Notes under the pieces: model-generated
Databases searched by the model: none
The model's input: only the letters and a program-made list of their open reading frames with translations
What the model was told of the DNA's origin: nothing
Shown here: in pieces, positions 7,529 through 42,638 of the stretch
Numbering within the stretch: the first letter of the stretch is position 1
Layout: every line of letters begins with the position of its first letter
Assembly (NCBI GenBank): GCA_025352565.1
Contig: JANXTF010000010.1
Location: 1 to 64,000, forward strand
Source: Rhodospirillales bacterium
GTDB lineage: Bacteria; Pseudomonadota; Alphaproteobacteria; Acetobacterales; Acetobacteraceae
Direction of reading: 5' to 3'
DNA length: 64,000 nucleotides
Made by a program: the position numbers and the translations under genes

Positions 7529-7531
7529 GCC

Positions 7532-24709: not shown

Positions 24710-25105
24710 TCAGGCGGCCCGCGACGCGCCGAGGACCGGGCGGATGAAGTGCAGCGCCTCGTCGAAACTCCGCAGCCGGCCGAGCGCCTGCTGCCGCACG
24801 CAGTCCGACACCGTCCAATGCGACCCGGCCGGTACTATCATATAGGCCGGATCGGGGTTCTCGCGCACCCAGATAAGCACGTAGTCAGTATTCGGTTCCA
24901 CGCCGTCGCCCGCGCCGCCGCGCCCCGATTGAAACGCCGACGCGTCGCAAAGCCCCATGCAGCGCCCGGCCTGCAGCCATTGCGTGAGCACAGCCACATG
25001 ACGCGGCAGGATGCGCATGTGAAATTCGATGACGTTCGCGTCGCGCGGCGGCGGAGCGGTGCTGCCTCGATCGGTCTGGGTCGGCGCTGGCCTGGCGATA
25101 AGCAT
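24710..25105 (-). CDS. Hypothetical protein
   Basis: 131 aa from ATG 25105, which has GAGGG nine bases upstream; the frame continues 18 codons to ATG 25159 without a ribosome site. After a Pro-rich N-terminus come VIEFHMRILPRHVAVLTQWL, GRCMGLCDASAFQSG with two close cysteines, and DYVLIWVRENPDPAYMIVP, then SHWTVSDCVRQQALGRLRSF. It looks like a small globular protein. No family recognised. Its neighbour downstream is an unknown membrane protein on the same strand. Confidence 0.6.
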   Translation of the reverse strand: MLIARPAPTQTDRGSTAPPPRDANVIEFHMRILPRHVAVLTQWLQAGRCMGLCDASAFQSGRGGAGDGVEPNTDYVLIWVRENPDPAYMIVPAGSHWTVSDCVRQQALGRLRSFDEALHFIRPVLGASRAA

Positions 25106-25457
25106 CTCGGGAGCCCTCGGGATGGGAGGACTGTATCGTGGAATTTGAGGCTTCTCCACGGCTCAGCCTGTCATTCCGACGGGTCGCGGGTTTCTGTTGT
25201 AAAATTACAACAGGAAAATTCAGCCTGTTGCCGATTAGATGCAGCACGATATCCTAAACATCTGAAAACGTGGAAAAGACCAAGATCTTCATCACATCGT
25301 TTGGTGTAGCGATCGGGTTGCCCGCACCAAAGCGCGGTACCGGCCCGCCACGCCGGGTTTTCGCCACATTCGCCATCTAGAGCATGACGTCGCGCCGCAG
25401 CCGGGCTCCCGGAGTGTGCGCTTCGTCGTCTGAATGCCAGAAAGAGGGTCCGCACCG
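25106..25457. other. 352-bp gene-free region with a perfect palindrome
   Basis: Between the divergent unknown gene and the glycosyltransferase. It is AT-richer than its surroundings around 25190-25310 and holds the perfect inverted repeat at 25194-25213. No ORF here has coding character in codon use. Short matches such as ACATCTGAAAACGTGGAAAA give no clear promoter. Confidence 0.5.
25194..25213. promoter_or_regulatory. Perfect 9-bp inverted repeat, probable operator
   Basis: CTGTTGTAAAATTACAACAG is a full palindrome: 9-bp arms with an AA centre, of the TTGTAA-N2-TTACAA type bound by dimeric helix-turn-helix repressors. It lies 89 bases upstream of the minus-strand unknown gene and 245 upstream of the glycosyltransferase, so it more likely controls the former. 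The regulator is unknown. Confidence 0.5.
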
Positions 25458-26513: not shown

Positions 26514-26571
26514 CCCCAGCCGGCCATAAGCGCGCGGGTCACGGGCTACCCGACGCGAATGACAGGCCGAC

Positions 26572-26590
26572 GGCCGGTGTTCCGGCCTTT
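26572..26590 (+). terminator. Possible terminator after the glycosyltransferase gene
   Basis: GGCCGG-TGTT-CCGGCC (26572-26587) followed by TTTCCTCCC. The stem is short and the T-run only three bases, so it is a weak candidate. Confidence 0.4.
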
Positions 26591-26641
26591 CCTCCCGTCC
26601 CGGATTGATGGAGCATCGGCTCCGGACGTGCGAGAGGACGT

Positions 26642-27430
26642 ATGGGCGATGGGACGATGACATTGGTGTGCCGCGCCGTATCGGCGGGGGTGGCGCGGCT
26701 GACGCTGAACCGGCCCGCGTCGCGCAATGCGTTGTCGGTGGAACTGCTCGCCGCCTTGCGCGCCGCGCTCGATTGGGCGGCGGCCGAGACCGAAATCCGG
26801 GTTATCGTGATCGCCGGCGCCGGTGCCGCCTTCTGCGCCGGGCATGATTTGCGCCAGATGCGAGAGGATTCGGGTCGGCGGGCGATGGAGGCGCTGTTCG
26901 CGCAATGCTCGGAGGTGATGCTGCGCATTCAGGCGGTGTCCAAGCCGGTGATCGCGCGGGTACATGGCGTGGCGACGGCGGCGGGCTGCCAGTTGGTCGC
27001 CAGTTGCGACCTCGCCATCGCCGCCGACACCGCGCGGTTCGCCACGCCAGGCGTCAATATCGGCCTGTTTTGCTCGACGCCCATGGTCGCGCTCACCCGC
27101 GCGGTCGGCCGCAAGGCGGCGATGGAGATGCTGCTGACGGGCGACTTCATCGACGCCGCGCGGGCGCGCGAGATCGGGCTGGTGAACCGCGTGGTGCCGG
27201 AGGCCGCATTGGATGACGCGGTGGCGCTGCTCGCCGGTGCGATCGCGGCCAAAAGCGCCGCGACGCTCGCAATCGGCAAGGCGTTGTTCCATCGTCAGGC
27301 GGATATGGACGTGGCCTCGGCCTACCGTCTGGCCGGCCAGGCCATGACGGAAAACATGATGGCCCGCGACGCGGCGGAGGGCATCGACGCCTTTCTGGCC
27401 AAGCGCGCGCCGGTTTGGAGCGACACATGA
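26642..27430 (+). CDS. Enoyl-CoA hydratase/isomerase family protein (ECHDC3-like)
   Basis: 262 aa crotonase-fold protein. ATG 26642 has GAGAGG four bases upstream; ATG 26657 is an alternative. Motifs: LNRPASRNALSVELL, the CoA-anion hole GAGAAFCAGHDLRQM and HGVATAAGCQLVASCDLAIAADTARFATPGVNIGLFCS (key GxxTAAGCQLVASCD and ATPGVNIGLFC). That block is typical of the ECHDC3 subgroup, which lacks the standard pair of catalytic glutamates, so it may not be a classical hydratase. The stop overlaps the next gene (ATGA), coupling it to a two-domain VOC protein; the pair may handle an aromatic or branched acyl compound. Confidence 0.9.
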   Translation: MGDGTMTLVCRAVSAGVARLTLNRPASRNALSVELLAALRAALDWAAAETEIRVIVIAGAGAAFCAGHDLRQMREDSGRRAMEALFAQCSEVMLRIQAVSKPVIARVHGVATAAGCQLVASCDLAIAADTARFATPGVNIGLFCSTPMVALTRAVGRKAAMEMLLTGDFIDAARAREIGLVNRVVPEAALDDAVALLAGAIAAKSAATLAIGKALFHRQADMDVASAYRLAGQAMTENMMARDAAEGIDAFLAKRAPVWSDT

Positions 27431-28311
27431 ACGACGCCGTCCCCGCCTTCGACCGCACCACCGAGGATCTCGGCAACATCGTCGAGTTCGGCCACGTCAA
27501 CACCCGGGTCCCGGACCAGCGCTTCGCGACCTTGTTCTATGTTTCGGGCCTCGGGCTCACCCGCGATCCGTTTCTCATGGTGAGCGTGGACAACATGTGG
27601 ATCAACGTCGGTACGTGCCAGTTCCATCTGCCCACTGGCCCGGCGCAGGTGATCCGGGGCGTGACCGGGCTTGTGCTGCCCGACCTCGACGCGCTGGCGC
27701 GGCGGCTGCGCGGGGTGGCGTCGCATCTGAAGGGCACGGAATTCGCGTACACCCTCGGACGCGACGTGACGGAGGTGGTCTCGCCCTGGGGCAACCGCAT
27801 CCGCTGCCACGCGCCTTCTCCCAGGTTCGGCGCGGTCGGGCTCGGGATGCCGTACGTGGAACTGGACGCGCCGATCGGATCATCCGAGGCGATCGCGCGC
27901 TTCTACCGCGAGATGCTCGGCGCCCACGCCCATCGCGGGCAGGACGAGCGCGGCGTGTTCGCCCATGTGGCGGCCGGCCGCGCGGAAAGCCTGGTATTCC
28001 GCGAGACCGACGCCGCCCAGCCCGAATACGACGGCAACCACGTCCAGATCGGGCTGCAGGATTTCTCCGGGCCCCATCGGCTGCTGCTGGAGCGCGGGCT
28101 GGTGAGCGAGGAGAGCAACCAGCATCAGTACCGCTTCCTCGACATCGTGGATCTCGACACCGGGCAGAAGCTGGTGCGGATGGAGCACGAGGTCCGCAGC
28201 ATGCGCCATCCGATGTACGCGCGCTCCCTGCTCAACCGCGACCCGTCGCGCACCAACAACTCGTACGCGCCGGGTCTCGAGGCGCTGGCGTGGTTCCTGC
28301 CGCATGTCTGA
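27427..28311 (+). CDS. VOC-family (glyoxalase/dioxygenase fold) protein
   Basis: 294 aa, starting MNDAVPAFDRTTEDLGNIVEFGHVNT and coupled to the enoyl-CoA hydratase by an ATGA overlap. Two VOC modules are apparent: about 20-130 (FGHVNTRVPDQRFATLFYVSGLGLTRD; key FGHVNxxVPDQxxATxFY) and about 140-270 (GLGMPYVELDAPIGSSEAIARFYREMLGA). Candidate metal ligands include His in EFGHVN, Glu in VVSPW region and His in YDGNHVQIGL, as in dioxygenases and glyoxalases. Substrate unknown. A strong hairpin between this gene and convergent glmS probably terminates both. Confidence 0.85.
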   Translation: MNDAVPAFDRTTEDLGNIVEFGHVNTRVPDQRFATLFYVSGLGLTRDPFLMVSVDNMWINVGTCQFHLPTGPAQVIRGVTGLVLPDLDALARRLRGVASHLKGTEFAYTLGRDVTEVVSPWGNRIRCHAPSPRFGAVGLGMPYVELDAPIGSSEAIARFYREMLGAHAHRGQDERGVFAHVAAGRAESLVFRETDAAQPEYDGNHVQIGLQDFSGPHRLLLERGLVSEESNQHQYRFLDIVDLDTGQKLVRMEHEVRSMRHPMYARSLLNRDPSRTNNSYAPGLEALAWFLPHV

Positions 28312-28352
28312 ACGCGGAGCGCCCGTGACGCCCCCCGTGTAGGCGCCTGCCC

Positions 28353-28374
28353 CTTCCCCCTCGTGGGGGGGGAA
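28353..28374. terminator. GC-rich hairpin between convergent VOC gene and glmS
   Basis: CTTCCCCC-TCGT-GGGGGGGAAG forms an 8-bp stem with a TCGT loop. No T-run follows on the plus strand. A second dyad (CAGGGCGAACCCTG, 28387-28400) lies just downstream. Likely a bidirectional transcription end. Confidence 0.55.
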
Positions 28375-28417
28375 GCAAGTGCCGGGACAGGGCGAACCCT
28401 GTAGGGCCAGCCCAGCC

Positions 28418-30241
28418 CTATTCCACTGTCACGGACTTCGCCAGGTTGCGGGGCTGGTCCACGTCCGTGCCCTTCAGCACCGCCACCTGATACGCGATCA
28501 TCTGCACCGCGATGGCGTAAAGAATTGGCGCCACGAACGGGTCCACCCGTGGCAGCACCATCGTCTCGACCGCGATGCGGCGGAGTTTGGCGGCCCCTTC
28601 CGCGTCGCTGAGCACGATCAGTTGCCCGCCCCGCGCGGCGGCTTCCTGCAGGTTGCTTGCGGTCTTCTCGAACAGCGGACCGCTCGGTGCGATCGCCACC
28701 ACCGGGACGTCGCGGTCGATCAGCGCGATCGGGCCGTGCTTCATCTCGCCGGCCGCATATGCCTCGGCGTGAATGTAGCAAATCTCCTTCAGCTTCAGCG
28801 CACCCTCCAGCGCGATCGCGAAGCAGGTGCCGCGCCCCAGATACAGCACGTCGCGCGCCACCATCAGCCGCTCCGCGACGCGCTGGATCGTGGCCGTGTC
28901 CTCCAGCACCAACGCCGCGGCCGCCGGCACCTGCAGCAGCGCCGCCGTCAGTTCCGCCTCGCGGGCGGCGTGCAGCGTTCCGCGCGCCCGACCGATGCCA
29001 AGTGCCAGACATGCCAGCACCGTCAGCTGCGCGGTGAACGCCTTGGTCGAGGCCACCGCGATCTCAGGCCCCGCCACCGTCTGCAACACGGCGTCACTCT
29101 CGCGCGCCATCGTGCTCTCGGCGACGTTCACCACGGACAGCACGGGCGTCCCCGCATGGCGCAGGTATTTCAGCGCCGCCAGCGTGTCGGCGGTCTCGCC
29201 CGACTGCGACACCAGCACCCCGAGCGTGCCGGCCGCCATCGGCGGCGCGCGGTAGCGGAACTCGCTGGCCACGTCGATGTCGGCCGGGATGCGCGCCACT
29301 TCCTCGATCCAGCCGCGCCCGGCCAGCGCCGCGTAATAGGCTCCGCCGCAGCCGACCAGGCTGACGCGCTCGATTGCTGCCGGGTCCATCGCGAGCCCCG
29401 GCAGCATCACCGCGCGGCTGGCCGGGTCGACCATCCGGTGCAGCGTGTCGCCGATCACGGCGGGGTGCTCGTGCAGCTCCTTCTCCATGAAGTGCCGGTA
29501 GCCGCCCTTGCCCACGCCGCCGCCCGCCACCGACGAAAGCCGGATTTCGCGCGTGACCTCGGCGCCCTCCGCGTCGAAGAATGCCGCTCCCTCGCGCGTC
29601 ACCACCGTCCAGTCGCCGTCGCGCAGATAGGCCACACGCCGCGTCAGCGGCGCCAGCGCCAGCGCGTCCGAACCCAGGAACATCTCGTGCTGGCCGTACC
29701 CGACCGCGAGCGGCGCGCCGAACTGGGCGCCGATCATCAGCTCCGGGTGGCCCGCGAACACCATGGCCAGCGCATAGGCGCCGTGGAGCCGCCCGAAAGC
29801 GGCGCCCGCGGCCTCGATCGGCGTCATGCCGCGCCGCAGGTTGAAATCGACCAGTTGCGCGACCGTCTCGGTGTCGGTCTCGCTGGTGAATTCCTGGCCT
29901 TCCCGTTCCAGTTCGGCCCGCAATTCGGCGTGGTTCTCGATGATGCCGTTATGCACGATCGACACGCGCGCGGTGCCGTGCGGGTGCGCGTTGCGTTCGG
30001 TCGGCGCCCCATGCGTCGCCCAGCGCGTATGGCCGATGCCGGTGCTGCCCGCCAATGCGGTGCGCGCCAGCGACGCCGCGAGGTTGGCCAGCTTGCCCTC
30101 CGCCCGCCGCCGCTCGATGTGGCCGTTCACCAGCGTGGCGATCCCCGCGCTGTCGTAGCCGCGATACTCCAGCCGTTGCAGCGCACCCAGAATCACCGGC
30201 GCCGCCGGGCCGTTTCCGATCACGCCCACGATCCCGCACAT
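28418..30241 (-). CDS. glmS: Glutamine--fructose-6-phosphate aminotransferase
   Basis: Makes glucosamine-6-phosphate for peptidoglycan and LPS. 607 aa. N-terminal glutaminase domain starts MCGIVGVIGN with nucleophile C2, then GHTRWATHG, VHNGIIEN and SETDTE. Two SIS domains follow: LVSQSGETADT in the first and ALKLKEICYIHAEAYAAGEMKHGP in the second; the C-terminus is VDQPRNLAKSVTVE with the Schiff-base lysine K602. All catalytic parts are present, in contrast with the paralogue at 33598. Overlaps glmU by one base (TGATG), so glmU-glmS is one operon. No glmS ribozyme or sRNA target is visible, as expected when glmU precedes. Confidence 0.97.
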   Translation of the reverse strand: MCGIVGVIGNGPAAPVILGALQRLEYRGYDSAGIATLVNGHIERRRAEGKLANLAASLARTALAGSTGIGHTRWATHGAPTERNAHPHGTARVSIVHNGIIENHAELRAELEREGQEFTSETDTETVAQLVDFNLRRGMTPIEAAGAAFGRLHGAYALAMVFAGHPELMIGAQFGAPLAVGYGQHEMFLGSDALALAPLTRRVAYLRDGDWTVVTREGAAFFDAEGAEVTREIRLSSVAGGGVGKGGYRHFMEKELHEHPAVIGDTLHRMVDPASRAVMLPGLAMDPAAIERVSLVGCGGAYYAALAGRGWIEEVARIPADIDVASEFRYRAPPMAAGTLGVLVSQSGETADTLAALKYLRHAGTPVLSVVNVAESTMARESDAVLQTVAGPEIAVASTKAFTAQLTVLACLALGIGRARGTLHAAREAELTAALLQVPAAAALVLEDTATIQRVAERLMVARDVLYLGRGTCFAIALEGALKLKEICYIHAEAYAAGEMKHGPIALIDRDVPVVAIAPSGPLFEKTASNLQEAAARGGQLIVLSDAEGAAKLRRIAVETMVLPRVDPFVAPILYAIAVQMIAYQVAVLKGTDVDQPRNLAKSVTVE

Positions 30242-31575
30242 CAGCTTTTCTCCGCCTTATGCGCCGCCCGGAACGCGGCACCCCGCCCCGGCCTGGCGAC
30301 CTGGCGCGCCCGGCCGAACGCCATCGCATCCGCCGCCACGTCCTCGGTGATGACGCTGCCGGCGGTCACGAACGCCCCGTCGCCCAGCGAAACCGGCGCC
30401 ACCAGCACGGCGTCCGAGCCGACGAACACGCCGGCCCCGATCGTGGTGCGGTGCTTGGCGAACCCGTCATAGTTGCAGGTGATGGTGCCGGCGCCGATGT
30501 TGCTGCCGGCACCGATATCGGCGTCGCCCAGGTAGCTCAGGTGGTTGGCCTTGGCACCCTCGCCGAGCCGCGTCGCCTTCAGTTCCACGAAATTGCCGAC
30601 ATGGGCGCGCGCGCCCACCTGCGTTCCGGGCCGCAGCCGGGCAAACGGCCCGATCACGGCGCCCGGCCCGATCTCGCAGCCGTCCAGATGGCTGAACGCG
30701 CGGATTTCCGCCCCGGCCGCCACGCTCACGCCCAGGCCGAACACCACGTTCGGCCCGATGGTGACATCGGCGGCAAGGGTCGTGTCGTGGCTCAGGAACA
30801 CCGTGTCCGGTGCCGTCATCGACACGCCGCCATCCATCGCGGCAAGCCGCAGCCGCGCTTGCACCACCGCCTCCGCCTCCGCCAGTTCGGCGCGCGAATT
30901 GATGCCGCGCAACTCCGCGTAAGGCGCCTCCACGGCCGCCACCCGCATGCCGTCCGCGCGGGCCAGGGCAACCACGTCGGTCAGGTAGAATTCGCGCCCG
31001 GCATTCTCGTTGCCCACCGCGCGCAGCCACTGGCGCATCCGGTCCGCGTCGGCGCACAGCACGCCGGCGTTGCACAGGCCCTCGTCCCGCTCGGCGCCGG
31101 CCAGGTCCGCGAACTCCACGATGCGCTCCACGAACCCGCCCGCGCCGATCACCCGGCCATATTTCAGCGCGTCGGGCGGCCGCATCGCCAGCAGCGCGAG
31201 CCCGGCATCGCCCGCCCGCCCACGCGCCAACAGCCGGCGGAGCGTGGCCGCCGAGATCAGCGGATTGTCGGCATACAGCACCGCGACATCGCCCGCGCCG
31301 AACAACGCCTCGGCCTGCAAAGCGGCGTGCGCCGTGCCCAGGCGCTCATGCTGCACCACCACCGAATGAGGCGCGGCCAGCGATGTCACGCGGTCCATGC
31401 CCGGCCCCACCACCACCACGATGCGGTCGAACACCGCCTCGCACGCCCGGATCAGGTGGCACAGCATCGGCAGGCCGGCGATCGGGTGCGCCGCCTTCGG
31501 CAATGCCGAGTGCATCCGCGAACCCATGCCGGCAGCAAGCAGGATCGCGGTGGCGCGGCGGGGGGATGCGGACAT
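30241..31575 (-). CDS. glmU: Bifunctional UDP-N-acetylglucosamine pyrophosphorylase / glucosamine-1-phosphate acetyltransferase
   Basis: 444 aa from MSASPRRATAILLAAGMGSRM; the frame runs 42 codons further up but that part lacks similarity. The uridyltransferase half has LLAAGMGSRMHSALPK (family LAAGxGTRM), VVVQHERLGTAHA, LYADNPLI and GREFYLTDVV. The C-terminal half is a left-handed beta helix of hexapeptide repeats (VTIGPNVVFGLGVSVAAGAEI) with acetyltransferase residues in NFVELKATRLGEGAKANHLSYLGDADIG (key KxxxxGxGxKxxHLxYxGD) and GTITCNYDGFAKHRT. Converts glucosamine-1-phosphate to UDP-GlcNAc. First gene of the glmU-glmS operon. Confidence 0.96.
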   Translation of the reverse strand: MSASPRRATAILLAAGMGSRMHSALPKAAHPIAGLPMLCHLIRACEAVFDRIVVVVGPGMDRVTSLAAPHSVVVQHERLGTAHAALQAEALFGAGDVAVLYADNPLISAATLRRLLARGRAGDAGLALLAMRPPDALKYGRVIGAGGFVERIVEFADLAGAERDEGLCNAGVLCADADRMRQWLRAVGNENAGREFYLTDVVALARADGMRVAAVEAPYAELRGINSRAELAEAEAVVQARLRLAAMDGGVSMTAPDTVFLSHDTTLAADVTIGPNVVFGLGVSVAAGAEIRAFSHLDGCEIGPGAVIGPFARLRPGTQVGARAHVGNFVELKATRLGEGAKANHLSYLGDADIGAGSNIGAGTITCNYDGFAKHRTTIGAGVFVGSDAVLVAPVSLGDGAFVTAGSVITEDVAADAMAFGRARQVARPGRGAAFRAAHKAEKS

Positions 31576-31683
31576 GGCTCCTCGGTAGCTTCCGCCACCC
31601 GCACCTGTCAAAGCCCAACTGATCACCGATTGTGACCGGCGATGACAACGCATGTGAGCCCGACCACATAGCGTCACACCGTC

Positions 31684-32090
31684 ATGACGCATCATCGACA
31701 TGAATTGCCCTTATTTGAAGGCCAAATCATCAACTTCACCCCAGGATTCGCCGTGAAGATGCCCGATCAATTCGCGCTGCAACTCACGCGGGACCTGGAC
31801 CCGGCCGATCTGCGGCACGTGCTCGCCGTGTTCGAGACGGATCTCGCGCGGCTGGTGGGCCTCCTGCACGACGCCACGGAGGCGCCCGACGCGGTGAAGT
31901 TCTGCCGCGTGGCCCACCAATTGGCCGGCGCGGCGGGGGCGGTGGGTGCCACGGCGCTCGAGGACGCCGCCCGCCTCGCCATGGACAATGACCGTGTGAC
32001 CCCGGCCGGCATGGAAATGTCCGGTGCCGCGCTCGCCGCCCTGGCGCGCGATGCCATCGCCCGCTCCCGTGCCTTCGTGGCAAAGCTCCC

Positions 32091-32094
<4 letters not shown>
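31684..32094 (+). CDS. HPt (histidine phosphotransfer) domain protein
   Basis: 136 aa from ATG 31684; ATG 31759 (MPDQFALQLTRDLD) would give a tighter 111-aa domain and no clear ribosome site separates the choices. The phosphoacceptor is H78 in FCRVAHQLAGAAGAVGA, the classic HxLKGxA pattern with Ala in place of Lys. The helices around it (LAVFETDLARLVGLLHDA) fit a four-helix bundle. It overlaps the next gene as ATGA, so it is translated with an NtrC-type regulator and probably passes phosphate to that receiver. No histidine kinase is in the window; a hybrid kinase elsewhere must feed it. Confidence 0.85.
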
Positions 32095-33476
<1,382 letters not shown>

Positions 33477-33490
33477 AACCCGCATTCGCG

Positions 33491-33512
33491 TTTCGCCTCG
33501 CAAAATGCGAAA
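33491..33512. promoter_or_regulatory. Dyad upstream of the sigma54 promoter, candidate activator site
   Basis: TTTCGC (33491-33496) and GCGAAA (33507-33512) form an inverted repeat with 10-base spacing; an inner TCGC-AAAAT-GCGA overlaps it. It is centred about 75 bases upstream of the predicted start point, a usual distance for an NtrC-family enhancer. Only sequence symmetry supports this. Confidence 0.4.
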
Positions 33513-33549
33513 ATCTACGGGTTTGGCTGCTGAAACACCCGCTTTCGGG

Positions 33550-33564
33550 TGGCACGATCCATGC
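33550..33564 (+). promoter_or_regulatory. Candidate sigma54 promoter of the GlmS-like gene
   Basis: TGGCACG-ATCC-ATGC: the -24 element equals the consensus TGGCACG, and the GG (33551-33552) and GC (33563-33564) are exactly 10 bases apart, as sigma54 requires. The -12 box reads ATGC instead of TTGC. The start would be near 33576, leaving a short leader with GGAGGA (33583-33588) nine bases before ATG 33598. It directly follows a sigma54 activator gene. Confidence 0.6.
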
Positions 33565-33597
33565 GCTGCGTCCTCCAGGTTCGGAGGATTTTCGCTC

Positions 33598-35421
33598 ATG
33601 AGCGGCATCGTAGGCTTGGTTGACGGCTACCCGGTGGCACGCGACCTGATCGAGGCGCTGGGCCGCCTGGAACATCGCGGCCACGATGCGGCGGGAATCG
33701 CCGTCGCGGGACCCGGCTTCGGCATCCGCAAGGTGGTCGGCCGGTCGGCGGGGCTCGACACCGCGCTGGACCGCCTGGACGCAGCCCCCATGGGCGGCCA
33801 TGCCGGCATTGCGCAGAGCAGCTGGGCGCCGTTCGGCGGCGCCGAGGCGCCGGGTGCGGACCCTTTCGTGTGGGGCGGTGTCGCCGTGGTGCATGACGGG
33901 CTGATCCAGAACCAGCGCGAACTCCGGATGGAACTGCGCCTGGCCCTCGGCGCCAACCAGCGCGAGATGGCTCCCTCCGACAACGACGCCGAGGGGGAGG
34001 TGATCCCCCGCCTGATCGCCGCCGCCCGCGCCCGCGGGGCCGCCCCGATGGAAGCCGTCCGCTGGGCGACCGGCCGACTGCGCGGCGCCTACTCCCTGGC
34101 CGTGCTGTTCCAGGACCAGCCGGATGTGCTGCTGGTCGCCAATCATGGCAGCCCGATCGTGGTCGCCCGCAACCAGACAGGGTCCGGCGTCGCCTCCGAT
34201 CCGCGGGCGCTGCGGGGGCTGTGCGAGGACTACTCCCCGCTCGAGGACGGCGACATCGCCGAACTGCGCCCCGACGGCGTCCGCATCCATGACCGAGGGG
34301 GCCTGCTGACCGAGCGGCACTGGCAGAAGGTCATGCCCGATGCCCGCGTCGTGCCGGAGGAAGGCTATGTCTATCGCACGCGCGGCGACATCGCCGGCAC
34401 CCGCGCGGCCCTGGTCCGCACCGACGCGGCCCTGCGCGACCGCGCCGTGCCCGGCGCGATATCGGCCGCCAACCGTCTGCTTGTTCTCGGGGTCGGCAGC
34501 GCCCTTCGTGCCGCCGAGACCGCGCGCGTCTGGCTGGAGCGGCTGAGCGGTCTGCCCGTCGACGTCGAGTGCGCCGCCGAATATTGCGGCCGCGATGCGC
34601 CGCCTCGCCAGGGCAGCGTCGCCATCCTTGTGTCCCGCACCGGCGAGACGGCCGACATCGTGCTCGCCCGCCAGATGCTTGCCGCCCAGGGCCTGCCCTG
34701 CGTGGCGCTTACCGAGGCCCCGCATAGCCGCCTCGCCGACGGCGCGGCCCTGTTCTGGCCCACCAATGCCGGCCCGGAGGCGGCGCCCGCCGCCACCAAA
34801 AGCTTCTCCGCCCAGTTGCTCGCCTTGCTCCGGCTCGGGCAGCGGATCGGCGCCGCCCGTGGCACGCTGAGCGGCGACGCGCTGGCCGAAGCCGAACTGG
34901 CACTCGCCGAGGCGCCCGTCGCCGCCGCGCTGGCCGAGGCCGCCGAAGCCCGTTTCGCCGCCATCGCCTGCCGTCTCGCCCAGGCCAATGAGGCCCTGCT
35001 GATCGGTCGCGGCGGCGGCGCGGCCATCGCCGCCGACGGCGCCCAGAAGCTGCGCGAACTCGCCCAGCTCCCCGCCCATGCCTGCGCCGCCGGCCAGCTG
35101 CGCCACGGCGCCATCGCGCTCGTGCATGACGCCATGCCCGTCATCGTCTGCGCCGAGGCTGATGCGCGCCTGGCCAGCACCGTGGTCGATGCCGAGGAAG
35201 CGCGTGCGCGCGGCGCCCAGGTGATCGTGCTGGTCGAGTCACGCGCCACCGCCGATTTCCACCATGTGGCGCATGACGTGGTGGCGCTGCCGGGCAGGGG
35301 CCTCGCCAACCTGTTCGCGCAGGCGATGGCGGTGCAGCTGATCGCCTACCACACCGGCCTCGCCTTGGGGCACGATGTGGACCGGCCACGCAACCTGATG
35401 CACGCCGTCGGCGTGGAATAG
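33598..35421 (+). CDS. GlmS-like protein lacking catalytic Cys and Lys (probable sugar-phosphate-binding paralogue)
   Basis: 607 aa, the same length as the window's true GlmS and aligning with it end to end, but degraded at key points. It begins MSGIVGLVDG: the glutaminase nucleophile C2 is Ser. TRWATHG has become SSWAPFG, and VHNGIIEN is VHDGLIQN, so glutamine hydrolysis should be lost. Both SIS domains remain (LVSRTGETADI; QKLRELAQLPAHACAAGQLRHGA), keeping the Glu and His of the isomerase site, but the final NLAKSVTVE is NLMHAVGVE, so the Schiff-base Lys is His602. Binding of a sugar phosphate without amination is plausible. It sits behind a sigma54 promoter and an activator gene and 99 bases before an ABC importer, suggesting a sensor or an isomerase/deaminase-like role. 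Confidence 0.88.
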   Translation: MSGIVGLVDGYPVARDLIEALGRLEHRGHDAAGIAVAGPGFGIRKVVGRSAGLDTALDRLDAAPMGGHAGIAQSSWAPFGGAEAPGADPFVWGGVAVVHDGLIQNQRELRMELRLALGANQREMAPSDNDAEGEVIPRLIAAARARGAAPMEAVRWATGRLRGAYSLAVLFQDQPDVLLVANHGSPIVVARNQTGSGVASDPRALRGLCEDYSPLEDGDIAELRPDGVRIHDRGGLLTERHWQKVMPDARVVPEEGYVYRTRGDIAGTRAALVRTDAALRDRAVPGAISAANRLLVLGVGSALRAAETARVWLERLSGLPVDVECAAEYCGRDAPPRQGSVAILVSRTGETADIVLARQMLAAQGLPCVALTEAPHSRLADGAALFWPTNAGPEAAPAATKSFSAQLLALLRLGQRIGAARGTLSGDALAEAELALAEAPVAAALAEAAEARFAAIACRLAQANEALLIGRGGGAAIAADGAQKLRELAQLPAHACAAGQLRHGAIALVHDAMPVIVCAEADARLASTVVDAEEARARGAQVIVLVESRATADFHHVAHDVVALPGRGLANLFAQAMAVQLIAYHTGLALGHDVDRPRNLMHAVGVE

Positions 35422-35520
35422 AGCGAAGGCATTCGGTTGCCGGTCCGGCGCAACTCGGTCAAATTGAGCGCCGCGCGATAGAGCCCGCATCAAGCGGGCC
35501 GCGCAGGAGGGAACACGGCC

Positions 35521-36579
35521 ATGAAGCAATCACCCGGGCGTGGCGGCGGACGCCGGCGGCTGGCGCGAAGCGCGCTGCTTGCGATGTTCGGCCTCGGCGT
35601 GCTCAACGCCGCGCCCGCGCGGGCGGCCGGAAACGTCGTCGTGTATTGCGGCGTGAACGAGGAGTGGTGCCGCGCGGCCGCGACCGCGTTCGAGCAGAAA
35701 AGCGGCGTGCATGTCGACATGACCCGCCAGAGCGCCGGCGAATTGTACGCCCGCCTGCGCGCCGAGAAGGACAATCCACGCGGCGACATTTGGTACGGCG
35801 GCACCGGCGACCCGCATTTGCAGGCGGCGTCGGACCAGCTGACCGAGCCGTATCAATCGCCGGCCCTGAGCCAGCTGCGCGAATGGGCGCAGAATCAGGC
35901 GAAGCGGTCCGGCAACCGCACCGTCGGGCTGTATCTCGGCGCGCTCGGCTTCGGCTATAACGCCGACGAACTGGCCAAGCGCAAACTCGCCGCGCCCGCC
36001 TGCTGGGCCGATCTGCTCAAGCCCGAGTTCAAGGGCGAGGTCGAGATGGCCGACCCCAACGCGTCCGGCACCGCATGGACCATGCTCGCGACCATCGTGC
36101 AGCTGATGGGCGAGGATCGCGCGTTCGACTACCTCAAGAGCCTGCACCGGAACATCGTCCAGTACACCAGTGCCGGCGCCGCGCCCGCCATGGCGGTTGG
36201 CCAGGGCGAGGTGATCGTCGGCATCGCCTTCCAGCACGACATGATCGACAGCGCCAAGCACCATCCGGCGGTCAAGGTGGTGTCGCCCTGCGAGGGCACC
36301 GGCTACGAGATCGGCTCCATGAGCATCATTAAGGGCGCCCGCCACCCCGACGAGGCGCGCCAGTTCTACGAATGGGCGCTCACCCCGGCGGCCCAGGCGA
36401 TCGCGGGCCGCACCGGCAGCTACCAGATCCCGTCCAACACGGCCACGCCGGTTCCCCCCGAGGCGCCCGACATCAGCAAGATCAACCTGATCGACTACGA
36501 TTTCGCGAAATTCGGCTCGTCCGAGACGCGCAGGCGGCTGCTCATGCGCTGGACCAAGGAGGTCAAGAACGGCGGCTAA
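35521..36579 (+). CDS. ABC transporter periplasmic binding protein (ferric/hexose-phosphate type, AfuA/FbpA-like)
   Basis: 352 aa with a signal peptide; RRRLARSALLAMFGLGVL has a twin-arginine look, cleavage near ARA-AGN. Mature protein starts NVVVYCGVNEEWCRAAATAF, as in the Fe3+-type (FbpA/AfuA) binding-protein cluster, with GDIWYGGTGD and GYNADELAKRKL. No tyrosine pair for ferric iron is obvious; instead H239-D240 in AFQHDMID and E263 in GTGYEIGSMS have the same spacing as the sugar-phosphate-contacting His-Asp and Glu I recall for AfuA, which binds hexose phosphates. AGGAGGG precedes the ATG. First gene of a tightly coupled operon with permease, ATPase and iolGDE, so the ligand is probably an inositol-type or phosphorylated polyol. 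Ligand is inference. Confidence 0.9.
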   Translation: MKQSPGRGGGRRRLARSALLAMFGLGVLNAAPARAAGNVVVYCGVNEEWCRAAATAFEQKSGVHVDMTRQSAGELYARLRAEKDNPRGDIWYGGTGDPHLQAASDQLTEPYQSPALSQLREWAQNQAKRSGNRTVGLYLGALGFGYNADELAKRKLAAPACWADLLKPEFKGEVEMADPNASGTAWTMLATIVQLMGEDRAFDYLKSLHRNIVQYTSAGAAPAMAVGQGEVIVGIAFQHDMIDSAKHHPAVKVVSPCEGTGYEIGSMSIIKGARHPDEARQFYEWALTPAAQAIAGRTGSYQIPSNTATPVPPEAPDISKINLIDYDFAKFGSSETRRRLLMRWTKEVKNGG

Positions 36580-36587
36580 GGCGCGAC

Positions 36588-38675
36588 ATGCGCACAGCCC
36601 TGGCGGGCGCCACCGGAAGCGGCCCCATTGCGTGGGCCTTGATCGCCATCGTCTCGCTGGCGCTGGTGCCTTGGTACGGCATCGAGGGCGGCCCGGCCGC
36701 GTGGTCCGCCCTCGTGCATGGCTGGCGCGGCCATGCCTGGCTGCTGCCGATGCTGGCGGTACCGGTTCTTGCCTGCTGCTCGACCGGCCGGCCCTGGCTG
36801 CTCGTGGCGGCCGGTCTGGGCGGGCTCGCCTGGCTCGGCGTGGAGGCATTCGCCATCGGACGCGGCCAGCCGGCCCTCGGATGGGGCGCGTTGGCGTTCG
36901 CCATCGCCTGCCTGATGCTCGCGGCCCACGGGCTGGCCCTCAGGGGCTGGTGCCGGGGCGACGTGTTCACGGTGGGTGCGATCGGGCTGGTCGCGGGCTC
37001 GATCCTGGTGTTCGTCGGCTACCCGGTCGGCTGCATCCTCCTCTCCGCCTTCCAGGACAATGCCGGCCGCCTCGACCTCGCGGCCTTCGCGGCCAAGCTG
37101 ACCGACCCGTCGATCTGGGGCCTCGGCTGCCTCCAGGGCGGGCGAAGCTGCGGCATCGCGTGGAACTCGCTGGCCCAGGCGGTGATCGTGGGCGTGCTGA
37201 CCACGCTGCTCGGCCTCGCCTTCGCGCTCGTCTCGGCGCGCACGCGGGTTCGCTTCAAGCCGCTGCTCCGGGTCATGTCGGTGCTGCCCGTGATAACGCC
37301 CCCCTTCGTCATCGGGCTCGCGCTGATCCTGCTGTTCGGCCGCGCCGGCATGGTCAGCAACCTGCTGCGCGACTGGTTCGACATTCCGCGCAGCCGCTGG
37401 ATCTACGGCATGCCCGGACTCACCATCGCGCAGCTTCTGGCGTTCACGCCGATCGCGTACCTCGTGCTGCTCGGCGTGCTGCAAGGCGTCAGTCCGAGCA
37501 TGGAGGAGGCTTCCCAGACGCTGCGCGCGGGGCGTTGGCGCACCTTCCGCCTCGTCACCTGGCCATTGATCCGCCCCGGCCTCGCCAACGCCTTCCTGAT
37601 CGGCTTCATCGAGAGCCTGGCCGATTTCGGCAACCCGATGATGATCGGCGGCAATTTCCGGGTGCTCTCGACCGGCGTCTATTTCGCCGTCGTGGGTGCC
37701 GCCGTCGATCAGGGACAGGCCGCCGTGCTGGCGATCGTGCTGCTGGCGTTCACGCTCGGCGCCTTCGTGCTGCAACGCCTCTGGACCGGACGGCGCAGCT
37801 ACGTGACCGTGACCGGCAAGGGCGATTCCGGCGTGCCGGCCACGCTGCCGCCCGTTCTGCGCGGCGTCTGCTTCGCGGCCGTGGCGCCCTGGATCGTGCT
37901 CACCGTGGCCGTCTATGGCGTGATCCTGTTCGGCGGCTTCGTCGAGGCGGTGGGCACCAACAACACGCCGACCTTGGCCTATTTCCGCACCGCCTTCGCC
38001 ATCGGCCGCGGCGATCACGGCTGGTTCCTCGCCGGCTCCGCCTGGAACTCGCTCATCACCACCCTTGAGGTCGCCGCCCTCGCCATGCCGATCACGGCGG
38101 CATTCGGCATCCTGACCGCCTACCTGCTGAGCCGGCAGCCTTTCGCGGGCCGCTCGCTGTTCGAATTCCTGACCATGATGAGCTTCGCCATTCCCGGCAC
38201 CGTCATCGGCGTCAGCTACATTCTCGCCTTCAACGTGGCCCCCATCGAGCTGACCGGCACGGGCCTCATCATGGTGATCGCCTTTGTTTTCCGAAACATG
38301 CCCGTCGGCATCCGCGCGGGGCTGGCCAATCTCAGCCAGATCGACCGCTCGCTCGACGAGGCGTCGTTCACGCTCGGCGCCCGCTCGTCCGTCACGCTGC
38401 GCCGCGTTATCCTGCCGCTGTTGCGTCCGGCGGTCGCGACCTCGATGGTGTATGCGTTCGTGCGCGCCATCACCAGCGTCAGCGCCGTTATCTTCCTGGT
38501 GAGCGGCGAGTACAACCTCGCCACCGTCTATATCGTCGGACGCGCCGAATACGGGGAGTATGGCCTGGCCATCGTCTATTCCGCCGTGCTGATCGCGATC
38601 ATGGTCGTGGCGCTGCTCGCCATCCAGGCCCTCGTCGGCGAGCGCCGCATCGGCCGCCGCGCGGTCGCGGCATGA
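36588..38675 (+). CDS. ABC transporter permease, fused two-domain (FbpB/AfuB-like)
   Basis: 695 aa inner-membrane protein with about 12 helices, two BPD-transport permease modules in one chain. Each half has an EAA-type loop contacting the ATPase: MEEASQTLRAGRWRTFRLVTWPLIRPGL in the first (key EASxTLRAGxWxTFxxVTxPLxxP) and LDEASFTLGARSSVTLRRVILPLLRP in the second. The first 120 residues form extra hydrophobic helices before the first module. Starts eight bases after the binding-protein gene and overlaps the ATPase gene by four bases (ATGA). Translocates the ligand of the binding protein. Confidence 0.92.
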   Translation: MRTALAGATGSGPIAWALIAIVSLALVPWYGIEGGPAAWSALVHGWRGHAWLLPMLAVPVLACCSTGRPWLLVAAGLGGLAWLGVEAFAIGRGQPALGWGALAFAIACLMLAAHGLALRGWCRGDVFTVGAIGLVAGSILVFVGYPVGCILLSAFQDNAGRLDLAAFAAKLTDPSIWGLGCLQGGRSCGIAWNSLAQAVIVGVLTTLLGLAFALVSARTRVRFKPLLRVMSVLPVITPPFVIGLALILLFGRAGMVSNLLRDWFDIPRSRWIYGMPGLTIAQLLAFTPIAYLVLLGVLQGVSPSMEEASQTLRAGRWRTFRLVTWPLIRPGLANAFLIGFIESLADFGNPMMIGGNFRVLSTGVYFAVVGAAVDQGQAAVLAIVLLAFTLGAFVLQRLWTGRRSYVTVTGKGDSGVPATLPPVLRGVCFAAVAPWIVLTVAVYGVILFGGFVEAVGTNNTPTLAYFRTAFAIGRGDHGWFLAGSAWNSLITTLEVAALAMPITAAFGILTAYLLSRQPFAGRSLFEFLTMMSFAIPGTVIGVSYILAFNVAPIELTGTGLIMVIAFVFRNMPVGIRAGLANLSQIDRSLDEASFTLGARSSVTLRRVILPLLRPAVATSMVYAFVRAITSVSAVIFLVSGEYNLATVYIVGRAEYGEYGLAIVYSAVLIAIMVVALLAIQALVGERRIGRRAVAA

Positions 38676-39823
38676 CCGGCATGGCGGACGCGGTCGTGTT
38701 CGACGCGGTCACCAAGCGGTACGGGCTGGTCACCGCCGTCGACGATGTGAGCTTCACGATCGCGCCCGGAACGCTGGTGACGCTGCTCGGCCCGTCCGGC
38801 TGCGGCAAGACCAGCACGCTGCGCCTGATCGCGGGGCTGGAGCAGCCGAGCAAGGGGCGCATCCTGATCGGCGGCGCCGACGTCACGCATCTTTCGGCCG
38901 CCGAGCGGGATGTCAGCATGGTATTCCAGTCCTATGCGCTGTTCCCGCACATGAGCGTCATGGACAATGTCTGCTACGGCCTGCGCGCCGGCGGCAGCAA
39001 GCGGCGCGCGGCCGAGGCGATGGCCGCCGACAAGATCGGCGCGGTCGGGTTGTCGGGCTTCGAGCGGCGCCTGCCGAGCGAACTTTCCGGCGGCCAGCAG
39101 CAGCGCGTGGCGGTGGCACGCGCGATCGTGCTCGAACCGAAGGTTCTGCTGTTCGACGAGCCGCTCTCGAATCTCGACGCGAAATTGCGCCGCCGCGTCC
39201 GCGACGACATCCGTGCGCTGCAACAATCCCTCCGTCTCACCGTCGTGTACGTGACGCATGACCAGGAGGAGGCGCTGGCGGTGTCGGACCGGATCATCGT
39301 CATGCACCGCGCGCGCATCGTGCAGGACGGCACGCCGCGTCAGCTGTACGAGCAGCCCAGCAGCCGCTTCATCGCCGATTTCATCGGCAACGCGAACCTG
39401 ATCCCGATCACCGTGGCGCGGGATGGCGATTTCGCGCGCGCCACGCTCGGCACGATGACGCTGCGCCTGCCCCACCGCGACGTGCCGGATGGGTTGGCGG
39501 AACTTGCGGTACGCCCCGAGGCCATCCGCATCTTCGCCCGCGCGCCCCAGCCCAACGAGATCGCCGGCACCATCCGCAAATCGGCCTATCTCGGCAGCCA
39601 TATAGAATACGAGGTGGCGCTCGACGGCGTGCCCGGCGAGATTTTCGTGATCGACGGTGACGTGGCGGCGCCGCTGCCGCCGGGAACCGCCATCAGCGTT
39701 GCCATCGCCCCCGGCGGCGCTACCATCGTCGCCGCCCCCGGCGGCGCCACAGTGGGCGGTGCCCCCGGCGGCGCCACAGTGGGCGGCGCTGCGCCTGACC
39801 AACCGGAGAGACAACCAGCATGA
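38672..39823 (+). CDS. ABC transporter ATP-binding protein (FbpC/PotA-like)
   Basis: 383 aa. Walker A LLGPSGCGKTSTLRLIAGLE, Q-loop VFQSYALFPHMSV, signature LSGGQQQRVAVARA, Walker B VLLFDEPLSNLD and switch His in VTHDQEEAL. The C-terminal TOBE/OB domain runs from about 240 (ANLIPITVAR; LAVRPEAIRIFAR). The last 30 residues are a low-complexity tail, PGGAT repeated three times, from three 27-bp DNA repeats at 39707-39787; this tail lies outside the fold. Both ends overlap neighbours as ATGA. Powers the importer encoded just upstream. Confidence 0.95.
   Translation: MTGMADAVVFDAVTKRYGLVTAVDDVSFTIAPGTLVTLLGPSGCGKTSTLRLIAGLEQPSKGRILIGGADVTHLSAAERDVSMVFQSYALFPHMSVMDNVCYGLRAGGSKRRAAEAMAADKIGAVGLSGFERRLPSELSGGQQQRVAVARAIVLEPKVLLFDEPLSNLDAKLRRRVRDDIRALQQSLRLTVVYVTHDQEEALAVSDRIIVMHRARIVQDGTPRQLYEQPSSRFIADFIGNANLIPITVARDGDFARATLGTMTLRLPHRDVPDGLAELAVRPEAIRIFARAPQPNEIAGTIRKSAYLGSHIEYEVALDGVPGEIFVIDGDVAAPLPPGTAISVAIAPGGATIVAAPGGATVGGAPGGATVGGAAPDQPERQPA
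39707..39787 (+). repeat. Three 27-bp tandem repeats in the ATPase 3' end
   Basis: Units at 39707-39733 (diverged), 39734-39760 and 39761-39787 (identical: GCCCCCGGCGGCGCCACAGT followed by GGGCGGT). In frame, they add PGGATVGGA units to the protein tail, probably by slippage. Confidence 0.85.
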
Positions 39824-40812
39824 TCGGTTTCGCCGTCATCGGATGTGGCCGTATCGGTCGGATGCACGCCCGCAATGTTCGCGCGCATCCCCGCGCCGAC
39901 CTCGTGGCATGTTACGACATCGCTTCCCAGGCGGCCGCCGAGACCGCCGCCGAACTTGGTTCGGCGGCGGCGCGCTCGATCGAGGAGGTGCTCGCCAACC
40001 CGCGAATCCGTGCCGTGTTCATCGCGTCGAGTACCGACACGCACACCGACCTGATCGAGCGGTCGGTCAAGGCCGGCAAGGCGGTAATGTGCGAAAAGCC
40101 GGTCGATCTCGACCTCGCACGGGTCGATGCGTGCTGGCAGCGGATCGCGGACCTGAAGCCGCTGGTGATGATCGGTTTCAACCGCCGTTTCGACCCGTCG
40201 TTCCGCGCCGTGCGGGCGCGTGTCGCCGCGGGCGAGATCGGCGCCGTCGAGCAGGTCGTCATCACCAGCCGCGACCCCGCGCCGCCAGCGGCCGCCTATG
40301 TCGCGGTGTCGGGCGGGCTGTTCCGCGACATGACGATCCATGATTTCGACATGGCACGGTACCTGGCGGGCGATATCGTCGAAATGCGGGCGATGGGAGC
40401 CAATCTGATCGCGCCGGAAATCCGCGCGGCGGGCGATTTCGACGCCGCCATGCTGATCATGCGCGCGGCGTCGGGCGCTCTCGTCCACATCAACAACAGC
40501 CGCCGCTGCGCCTATGGCTACGACCAGCGTATCGAGGTGTTCGGCGCCACCGGCATGTTGCAGGCCCATAACCGCCACGACACCACTGTCGAGGCGTGGG
40601 GCGCGGGGGCCACGCACGCGCGGGATCGGGCGCAGGACTTCTTTATCGCGCGCTATGCCGAAGCCTATCGCGCCGAACTCGACCACTTCATCGACTGCGT
40701 CGAGACCGGGGCCGCCCCCATCGCGGGCTTCGCGGAAGGCCGCGAGGCGCTGCGGCTGGCTGACGCCGCGATCGAGAGTGCCGAGAGCGGGCGCGCGGTG
40801 CGACTGGCATGA
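39820..40812 (+). CDS. iolG: Inositol 2-dehydrogenase family (Gfo/Idh/MocA oxidoreductase)
   Basis: NAD-dependent oxidation of myo-inositol to scyllo-inosose (or a related polyol). 330 aa. Rossmann motif AVIGCGRIGRMHARNV, catalytic K93 in CEKPVDLD, then GFNRRFDPSF and GGLFRDMTIHDFDMARYL with D170 and H174, matching Lys97, Asp172 and His176 of Bacillus IolG. It overlaps the ATPase gene (ATGA) and the next gene likewise. With iolD and iolE downstream the inositol assignment is firm, although the isomer (myo, scyllo, chiro) cannot be told. Confidence 0.92.
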   Translation: MIGFAVIGCGRIGRMHARNVRAHPRADLVACYDIASQAAAETAAELGSAAARSIEEVLANPRIRAVFIASSTDTHTDLIERSVKAGKAVMCEKPVDLDLARVDACWQRIADLKPLVMIGFNRRFDPSFRAVRARVAAGEIGAVEQVVITSRDPAPPAAAYVAVSGGLFRDMTIHDFDMARYLAGDIVEMRAMGANLIAPEIRAAGDFDAAMLIMRAASGALVHINNSRRCAYGYDQRIEVFGATGMLQAHNRHDTTVEAWGAGATHARDRAQDFFIARYAEAYRAELDHFIDCVETGAAPIAGFAEGREALRLADAAIESAESGRAVRLA

Positions 40813-42638
40813 GGCTTACCGCGGCACAGGCGCTCGTGCGCCATCTGGCGGCGCAGCGCACGATCGTCGGCGATGTGGAGCTGCCGTTGTTCGCCGGCTG
40901 CTGGGCGATCTTCGGGCATGGCAACGTCGCCGGCATGGGCGAGGCGCTGCATCAGGCGCGCGATACGTTGCCGACGCTGCGCGCGCATAACGAGCAGGCG
41001 ATGGCACTTGCCGCCATCGCTTTCGCCAAGGCCCGCAACCGCCGCCAGATGATGGCCTGCACCAGTTCCATCGGGCCGGGTGCCATGAACATGCTGACGG
41101 CGGCCGGGGTGGCGCATGTCAACCGCCTGCCGGTGTTGCTGCTGCCCGGCGACGTGTTCGCCAGCCGCCGCCCCGATCCGGTGTTGCAGCAGGTCGAGGA
41201 TTGGGGCGACGGCAACGTCAGCGCCAATGACTGCTTTCGCCCGGTGTCGCGCTACTGGGACCGCATCACGCGGCCGGAACAACTCCTCACCGCTCTGCCG
41301 CGCGCGATCGCCGTGCTGACCGATCCCGCCGAATGCGGGCCAGTGACGCTGAGCCTGTGCCAGGACGTGCAGACCGAGGCGTTCGATTTCCCGGACTGGC
41401 TGTTCGAGACGCGCGTGCATCGCGCGCGGCGGCCGGCGCCCGACGCGCATGAACTCGCGCGCGCCGCGGCCGTGCTGCGCGCGGCGGCGCGGCCGCTGAT
41501 CGTGGCGGGCGGCGGCGTGCTGTACGCCGACGCGGCGGAAACGCTCCAGCGTTTCGCGCGGCTTCACGGTTTTCCTGTCGCGGAGACGCAAGCGGGCAAG
41601 GGAGCGGTGGCGTGGGATCATCCCATGGCGGTTGGCGCGATCGGGGTGACCGGCGGCACGGCGGCCAATACGCTTGCCCGCGAGGCCGACGCGATCCTTG
41701 CCATCGGCACAAGGCTGCAGGACTTCATCACCGGCTCGCGCGCCCTGCTGCCGGGGGGCGCGCGGATGATCCAGTTGAACGTCCAGGCGTTCGACGCCGG
41801 GAAGCACAACGCCGTCGCGCTCGTGGGCGACGCGAAGGTAACGCTCGACGCGCTGACGGCGATGCTGGGCGATCACCAAACCCCGGCCGGGTGGCGCGAA
41901 CGGACCCGCGCGCTCGGATCGGCGTGGAACGCCGATGTCGAAATCGCGACCGCGCGGAGCGCCGTTGCGCCGCCGACCGACGCACAGATCGTCGGCGCGG
42001 TGAACCGTGCCGCGCGCGCGAACGATGTCGTCGTCTGCGCGGCGGGCGGGCTGCCGGGCGAGTTGCACAAATTGTGGCGCGCATCCAGCCCGGGCACGTA
42101 TCACGTCGAATACGGCTTCTCCTGCATGGGCTACGAGATCGCCGGCGGTCTCGGCGTCAAGATGGCGCACCCGGCGGACGAGGTGTTCGTCATGGTGGGC
42201 GACGGCGGCTACCTGATGATGAACTCCGAGTTGCAGACCTCGGTGATGCTCGGCCGCAAGCTCATTGTGGTGGTGCTCGACAACCGCGGCTATGGCTGCA
42301 TCAACCGCCTGCAACGTGCCACCGGCGGCGCGTCGTTCAACAATCTGATCGCCGATGTGGACGGGCGGGTGGACGGGTCGTGGGTCGATTTCGCGATGCA
42401 CGCGCGCAGTCTTGGCGCGCTGGCCGAACAGGTCGCCGATGTGGCGGGGCTCGAAGCGGCGCTGACACGCGCGCGCGGCGCCGCGCGGACCAGCGTGGTC
42501 GTCATCGAGACCGATCCCATGGCGACCACCGAGGCGGGTGGCGCATGGTGGGACGTGGCGGTGGCCGAGGTGTCGCCGCGCGCGGAGGTGCGCGAAGCGC
42601 GGGCGGCCTATGTCAAGGCGTTGGGAGAAACGGCATGA
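40809..42638 (+). CDS. iolD: 3D-(3,5/4)-trihydroxycyclohexane-1,2-dione hydrolase
   Basis: ThDP enzyme that opens the inositol-derived ring. 609 aa. Starts MRLTAAQALVRHLAAQ; the ThDP-activating Glu is E62 in RAHNEQAMALAA, followed by SSIGPGAMNMLTAAGVAHVNRLPVLLLPGD. The Mg-ThDP motif is VGDGGYLMMNSELQTSVML with NRGYGCINRLQ, a pattern specific for IolD among acetolactate-synthase relatives. Start and stop overlap iolG and iolE (ATGA in each case). Acts after IolE in the pathway, giving 5-deoxy-glucuronate. The later enzymes IolB, IolC, IolJ and IolA are not in this window. Confidence 0.95.
   Translation: MRLTAAQALVRHLAAQRTIVGDVELPLFAGCWAIFGHGNVAGMGEALHQARDTLPTLRAHNEQAMALAAIAFAKARNRRQMMACTSSIGPGAMNMLTAAGVAHVNRLPVLLLPGDVFASRRPDPVLQQVEDWGDGNVSANDCFRPVSRYWDRITRPEQLLTALPRAIAVLTDPAECGPVTLSLCQDVQTEAFDFPDWLFETRVHRARRPAPDAHELARAAAVLRAAARPLIVAGGGVLYADAAETLQRFARLHGFPVAETQAGKGAVAWDHPMAVGAIGVTGGTAANTLAREADAILAIGTRLQDFITGSRALLPGGARMIQLNVQAFDAGKHNAVALVGDAKVTLDALTAMLGDHQTPAGWRERTRALGSAWNADVEIATARSAVAPPTDAQIVGAVNRAARANDVVVCAAGGLPGELHKLWRASSPGTYHVEYGFSCMGYEIAGGLGVKMAHPADEVFVMVGDGGYLMMNSELQTSVMLGRKLIVVVLDNRGYGCINRLQRATGGASFNNLIADVDGRVDGSWVDFAMHARSLGALAEQVADVAGLEAALTRARGAARTSVVVIETDPMATTEAGGAWWDVAVAEVSPRAEVREARAAYVKALGETA

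Follow-up and report, generated by a model that had tools for sequence, protein, structure and literature searches.

What is a full-length GlmS without its catalytic residues doing close to the ordinary glmS of a genome? Is it a pseudoenzyme retained for another task, the remnant of an enzyme in slow decay, a catalyst with a changed reaction, or simply a mutated copy of its neighbour? These questions are raised by a locus in the window, that is, the whole stretch of 64,000 nucleotides that was analysed. The features needed to follow the argument are these:

28418-30241, minus strand: the ordinary glmS of the genome, used for comparison (TIGR01135, 754 bits against a cut-off of 418)
30241-31701, minus strand: glmU, adjoining glmS and transcribed away from the Hpt gene (NF010933, 616 bits against a cut-off of 505); its true start is probably further in
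31684-32094, plus strand: Hpt phosphotransfer protein with an HQLAG motif, overlapping the start of the regulator gene
32091-33476, plus strand: LuxO/NtrC-type sigma-54 response regulator with a receiver, an AAA+ domain with GAFTGA, and HTH_8
33550-33564, plus strand: predicted sigma-54 (-24/-12) element TGGCACGATCCATGC, 48 nt upstream of the ATG
33583-33588, plus strand: ribosome-binding site GGAGGA, read from the sequence
33598-35421, plus strand: the GlmS2-derived paralogue (pseudo-GlmS), 607 aa, frame intact, catalytic residues of the glutaminase and isomerase sites lost

The earlier note on this DNA described a full-length GlmS paralogue of 607 codons in an open frame, and the plus-strand frame at 33598-35421 indeed runs without a stop. 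The paralogue equals the window's own glmS in length and shares 36% identity with it. Its best model is NF001484, a GlmS subfamily, whose cut-off of 381 it passes with 395.7 bits, whereas it fails TIGR01135, the GlmS equivalog (379 bits against 418.05). The earlier note had proposed a comparison with GlmS-like, AgaS and FrlB families; the models for NagB-II (78.7 bits, cut-off 430), GlmD (39.9, cut-off 580), FrlB (21.6, cut-off 430) and AgaS (19, cut-off 529.2) all score far under their cut-offs. An AlphaFold2 model of the paralogue, built on a two-row alignment of the window proteins, reached a mean pLDDT of 43 and a pTM of 0.32, too poor for use.

Which residues have gone? The active-site columns are E. 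coli GlmS residues placed by motif, from a list that we take to describe its active site. The glutaminase site of the paralogue carries C2S, R75S, H79F and N100D: HTRWATHG has become QSSWAPFG (with H73Q, T74S and T78P in addition) and HNG has become HDG. At the C-terminus RNLAK reads RNLMH (A601M, K602H), and the Schiff-base lysine is gone. The earlier note had counted C2, the Arg and His of RWATHG, the Asn of HNG and K602 as lost and the isomerase Glu and His as kept, and the alignment bears this out throughout. Unchanged are R27, G28, W76, G101, K484, E487 and H503, the last three corresponding to the isomerase residues Lys485, Glu488 and His504 in E. coli numbering. Absent from the earlier note are the changes in the sugar-phosphate loop, where SQSGET has become SRTGET (Q347R, S348T), and those at V397P, E480D, L483Q and K486R. 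The S-x-T-G-x-T pattern of the phosphate loop is still present, which is a point for a retained pseudoenzyme. D132E is alignment-dependent, since a 7-residue insert adjoins D132. A302, which we take to match E. coli S303, was considered as a further loss and rejected; CGSA and CGGA are both common in the ordinary glmS of these bacteria. GlcN6P synthesis would hardly be possible for a protein without the Cys nucleophile, the glutaminase Arg, His and Asn, and the Schiff-base Lys, and we infer that the paralogue has no synthase activity.

Are the losses concentrated in the active site? Nineteen intact proteins (seven GlmS and the 12 members of a clade described below as GlmS2) share 123 invariant columns, 39 of which have changed in the paralogue. 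Losses fall on 11 of the 19 active-site columns and on 28 of the 104 others (27%; hypergeometric P=0.0098); with D132 aligned the other way the active-site count becomes 10 of 19. When the domains are taken separately, with the test restricted to columns that 18 or more of the 19 intact rows keep, the N-terminal part has lost 6 of 10 active-site columns against 14 of 58 others (P=0.03) and the SIS part 5 of 10 against 23 of 81 (P=0.15), a weak enrichment. The 'selective loss of ammonia transfer' that the earlier note had read from this pattern is unsupported, because the sugar site is hit as well (Q347R, S348T, V397P, K602H), together with 27% of the other invariant columns. Both catalytic sites appear to be impaired, beyond ammonia transfer.

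Where does the paralogue come from? A protein search with it across 397 genomes of the family, one per species and most of them drafts, found 12 full-length intact relatives in six genera at 46-56% identity; these are the full-length relatives above a gap, among the matches listed, between 1.6e-119 (worst) and 1.4e-93 (next). MCG, HTRWATHG, HNG and the C-terminal Lys stand in all 12, and the isomerase His is Tyr in one. Judged against these relatives, every one of which keeps C2, the Arg, the His, the Asn and the terminal Lys, the degeneration of the paralogue is beyond chance. In both the SIS tree and the N-domain tree the paralogue nests with the 12 (100/100 each), which assigns it to a second GlmS clade, here called GlmS2, and makes it no recent local copy of glmS. 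The earlier note had held that, if relatives carried Cys2 and the Lys, this copy would be simply a mutated glmS duplicate. They do carry them, in 12 of 12, but the conclusion fails: the clade is separate and linked to exopolysaccharide (EPS) genes, and losses occur in three other genomes too.

The reach of the clade was also followed outside these genomes. A scan of assembled contigs with peptide patterns of the divergent paralogue alone gave two weak loci and no orthologue, a scan of viral contigs gave no match to the paralogue, and the best 15 of 330 matches in plasmid records are GlmS-like proteins at no more than 34.4% identity. Two observations concern the copy number of GlmS in the family. 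In G352 the GlmS2 copy is the only one found at E<=1e-20, with no ordinary glmS, either through a draft gap or with GlmS2 doing the housekeeping. Eight genomes (G091, G260, G268, G280, G294, G300, G321 and G387) have two full-length GlmS-like genes each, 32-37% identical to the query and by score outside GlmS2.

What would a second GlmS be for? Gene groups at the loci were formed with a simple ORF caller and BLAST clustering, and some stretches end at contig ends. Downstream of GlmS2, the fetched stretches of 11 of the 12 intact loci code for a conserved protein, c2, of roughly 770 aa; at the G418 locus c2 is not in the stretch and other cluster members are present. A Wzz/GNVR-type protein (c4) occurs at nine of the 12, a glycosyltransferase (c5) at eight, and an SLBB/Poly_export exporter (c7) inside the fetched stretch at six, while in G123 exporter, Hpt, regulator and a Wzz-type gene lie further along the GlmS2 contig. 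The Pfam names come from the proteins of G345 (SLBB, Poly_export, GNVR with Wzz under cut-off, Glyco_trans_1_4, Hexapep) and, for Hpt, from a G188 protein. A LuxO-like sigma-54 regulator, homologous to that of the window, directly precedes GlmS2 in 6 of the 12 intact loci, with one gene between in G345, and a homologue also precedes it in G027. By gene content an intact GlmS2 locus reads as a putative site of exopolysaccharide synthesis that brings its own source of GlcN6P.

At the paralogue this EPS context is lost. Between positions 22000 and 46000 of the window no ORF falls into the protein groups of the EPS cluster except GlmS and the regulator (Hpt was recognised by Pfam). Of ten genomes searched for c2, most of them drafts, three have it, and these are all the intact-GlmS2 genomes among the ten; it was not found in the four with a degenerate GlmS2 (G000, which is the window's genome, G027, G076 and G281), nor in G001, G137 and G166. 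A search for sugar transferases across G000 gave one weak match.

Is the gene still under dedicated control? The search for sigma-54 sites was prompted by the sigma-54 activator encoded next door; with Walker A, GAFTGA, receiver, HTH and HQLAG all present, regulator and Hpt look functional. The 'dedicated-looking promoter' of the earlier note has gained a concrete candidate in the predicted element at 33550-33564: a TGGCAC-N6-TGC element lies at most 120 nt upstream of 15 of the 16 clade genes, namely all 12 intact ones and those of the window, G027 and G076. In G281 there is no -24/-12 element within 120 nt upstream, which speaks against a retained pseudoenzyme. Counting these 15, the pattern occurs 35 times over the 579,832 strand-positions of the scanned loci, which gives an expectation of 0.006 per upstream stretch; the 15 are not independent, as several loci are closely related. 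Across the window's own genome the pattern is not enriched (26 sites against 27 for the control), so that the case for a promoter rests on the conserved place of the element before the relatives. In two or three cases the ORF behind the site was read as a flagellar or nitrate-transport gene, a hint that this genome does use sigma-54.

The regulator has a life of its own. It has matches at E<=1e-130 in 101 of the 397 family genomes, and Hpt precedes it in some EPS loci and in most of the stand-alone loci examined. That the Hpt-regulator pair and GlmS-like genes form a fixed module was considered and rejected: at 15 further regulator loci, including one in an EPS cluster (G123), no fetched stretch has a GlmS-type match. 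Two of these 15 contigs break off shortly behind the regulator; G137, from the genus of G027, has 140 nt left there, and these lack the -24/-12 element. Since a sugar transferase (PF02397) lies downstream at 4 of the 15 (three of the four carrying an element with no more than one mismatch), the theme of the regulator is probably polysaccharide synthesis. These four loci (L188, L190, L191 and L194, in G127, G358, G216 and G091) are Hpt/regulator pairs without GlmS2, followed by the sugar transferase, one of them with an element of perfect consensus, and may represent a polysaccharide regulon. Two features of the regulator argue against a retained pseudoenzyme: in the regulator tree the window copy falls outside the EPS-cluster copies, and the genes of G076 and G281 do not adjoin a regulator.

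The surroundings of the paralogue hold two further items. At 35521-42638 on the plus strand it is followed by an operon-like run of ORFs for a solute-binding protein, a permease, an ABC ATPase, a dehydrogenase-like and a ThDP-enzyme-like protein, the last two named by reading alone; for the solute-binding protein the closest NCBIfam models, under cut-off, are 2-aminoethylphosphonate binding proteins. The sole Rfam family above threshold in the window is the suhB/mmgR small RNA (RF00519, 49.5 bits) at 7464-7535 on the plus strand.

How far has degeneration gone in the relatives? Degenerate GlmS2 members were found in four genomes of four genera. The gene of G027 lies behind Hpt and regulator in an arrangement like that of the window and shares C2S with it; it reads ARWAS for TRWAT and breaks off after 252 residues at the contig end. 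The proteins of G076 (377 aa) and G281 (372 aa) are SIS-only, with neither a glutaminase domain nor a C-terminal tail that can be recognised. The sugar-phosphate loop is broken in G076 (MRGGEA for SQSGET), the SIS motifs of G281 are broken too, and the positions of K485, E488 and H504 hold M/R/G in G076 and N/D/H in G281; this want of conservation among the kin counts against a retained pseudoenzyme. With the G076 protein as query the window paralogue is the best match after the query itself, followed by the rest of the clade (worst 1.8e-45), and nothing new lies between the clade and the next matches (2.8e-34). The SIS-only genes lie at L093 (G076:C35) and L094 (G281:C378), the G281 gene about 345 nt downstream of a hybrid-histidine-kinase-like ORF. 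Losses at invariant columns are biased to the active site in G076 (8 of 9 against 24 of 55, P=0.013) and G281 (8 of 9 against 27 of 55, P=0.027). G027 has no such enrichment (3 of 10 against 13 of 48, P=0.56), a further point against a pseudoenzyme. Missing parts decided the rows used: the SIS tests were run without G027, the N-domain tests without G076 and G281.

Did these members degenerate once or several times? In the SIS tree the window paralogue, G076 and G281 form one clade with a support of 99/98, which stays at 98/91 after columns invariant in the 19 intact rows are dropped. Placed one at a time, the window and G076 go to the same branch (with a support of 42 for the fork enclosing G076) and G281 goes elsewhere (77). 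The pairing of window and G027 in the N-domain tree falls from 89/88 to 61/12 without the invariant columns. The trees favour a single origin, and long-branch attraction may lie behind the grouping; the long branches of the degenerate members are themselves a point against a retained pseudoenzyme.

How can these observations be brought together? The ancestor was, on the reading we prefer, a second glucosamine-6-phosphate synthase (GlmS2) that served an exopolysaccharide cluster. A sigma-54 promoter would have driven its transcription, and the activator was probably an Hpt/LuxO-like regulator such as the one now beside the paralogue. In the lineage of the window the EPS cluster has gone from the locus, and the full two-domain protein remains behind the same kind of promoter; it would be produced when the Hpt-regulator pathway is active. 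Its role would be non-catalytic. Most probably it would bind phosphosugars or serve as a subunit-type partner and so tune hexosamine supply, whether by touching the GlmS of the same genome or by signalling hexose phosphate to the polysaccharide regulon. We lean, by a little, towards a retained pseudo-GlmS, regulated by sigma-54 and derived from an EPS-dedicated GlmS. The main rival is slow decay: a GlmS2 left jobless after EPS loss would be drifting, its frame kept by slow decay in high-GC DNA and its promoter and regulator persisting by chance or for other reasons. This rival, which we regard as possible though not the likelier outcome, would account for the missing c2 hallmark in the four degenerate genomes, the long branches, the 28 of 104 invariant columns lost outside the active site, and the G076 and G281 genes without glutaminase domain and tail. 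No clade member was found in G001, the other genome of the window's genus (a draft, 93% complete), and the persistence of the regulator needs no pseudo-GlmS, because it also occurs without GlmS2. Drift is harder to square with frames that are open in all three complete degenerate ORFs as well as in the fragment from G027, with an element kept in 3 of the 4 degenerate members, and with a crude neutral replacement model without indels, in which 17, 2 and 0 of 1000 ORFs stayed free of stops at 0.3, 0.6 and 1.0 replacements per site. The comparison of dN/dS across relatives that the earlier note had suggested cuts both ways, with dS near saturation throughout: the ratio is below 1 in the four degenerate pairs (0.44 for the window with G281, 0.44 with G027, 0.70 with G076, and 0.62 for G076 with G281) and above the 0.37 of two intact pairs, so constraint is present but weaker than in the active clade. 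The verdict of 'not random decay' stands in part, carried by the open frame, the promoter element, the active-site bias and the degenerate kin; it is weakened by the losses in other columns and the weak enrichment in the SIS part.

Could the protein still do chemistry? SIS-only relatives of GlmS such as NagB-II, FrlB and AgaS work without a glutaminase domain, and with K484, E487, H503 and the S-x-[ST]-G-x-T phosphate loop retained, a SIS domain beside a dead glutaminase might isomerise or otherwise act on a phosphosugar. K602H, A601M, Q347R and V397P, the divergent residues at the K484, E487 and H503 equivalents in G076 and G281, and the low scores with the NagB-II, GlmD, FrlB and AgaS models make such a changed catalyst unlikely. 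Equal length and close linkage might point to a simple mutated duplicate of the window's glmS, or to a sequencing or assembly artefact. We consider this highly improbable, given 36% identity to its own glmS against up to 56% to the GlmS2 clade, its position within that clade in the trees, numerous scattered in-frame codon changes at a coding-like GC3 of 0.88, and the C2S common to the paralogue and G027.

How does a retained pseudo-GlmS compare with known systems? With GlmS (TIGR01135/NF001484) the paralogue has the two-domain architecture in common besides its length and identity, and it differs in the residues lost. NodM of rhizobia is a pathway-dedicated second GlmS in the nod cluster; the 12 intact relatives resemble it as GlmS genes inside a polysaccharide cluster, whereas the window paralogue has lost both active site and cluster. 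NagB-II, GlmD, FrlB and AgaS share the SIS fold (Pfam) with the paralogue and, like G076 and G281, have no glutaminase domain; unlike them, the paralogue keeps an inert one. A connection between sigma-54 and amino sugars also has a precedent, in which GlrR is the name of the regulator. Sigma-54 controls exterior polysaccharides, to which it has an established tie, and amino-sugar supply through GlmY and GlmZ (PMC3162934). The likeness is that sigma-54 is tied to glucosamine-6-phosphate synthase and exterior polysaccharides; the difference is that here the element lies directly before the GlmS-type gene, active or dead, and Rfam finds no RNA family at 25000-42000. Among the titles and abstract openings listed from the open-access literature, with subscription papers mostly outside that scope, no GlmS pseudoenzyme was found.

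GlmS is the entry point to the amino sugars of cell wall and polysaccharide. We tentatively propose, as a doubtful but coherent possibility, a family of GlmS pseudoenzymes exapted from an EPS synthase: a dead GlmS, switched by sigma-54 and Hpt, would sense hexose phosphate or pair with the housekeeping GlmS and so set amino-sugar flux for cell-surface polysaccharide, its glutaminase having been shed by point loss or by domain deletion according to genus. The rare series from active through point-mutated to domain-less members would make the birth of a pseudoenzyme traceable, and the idea of a GlmS-derived regulator testable.
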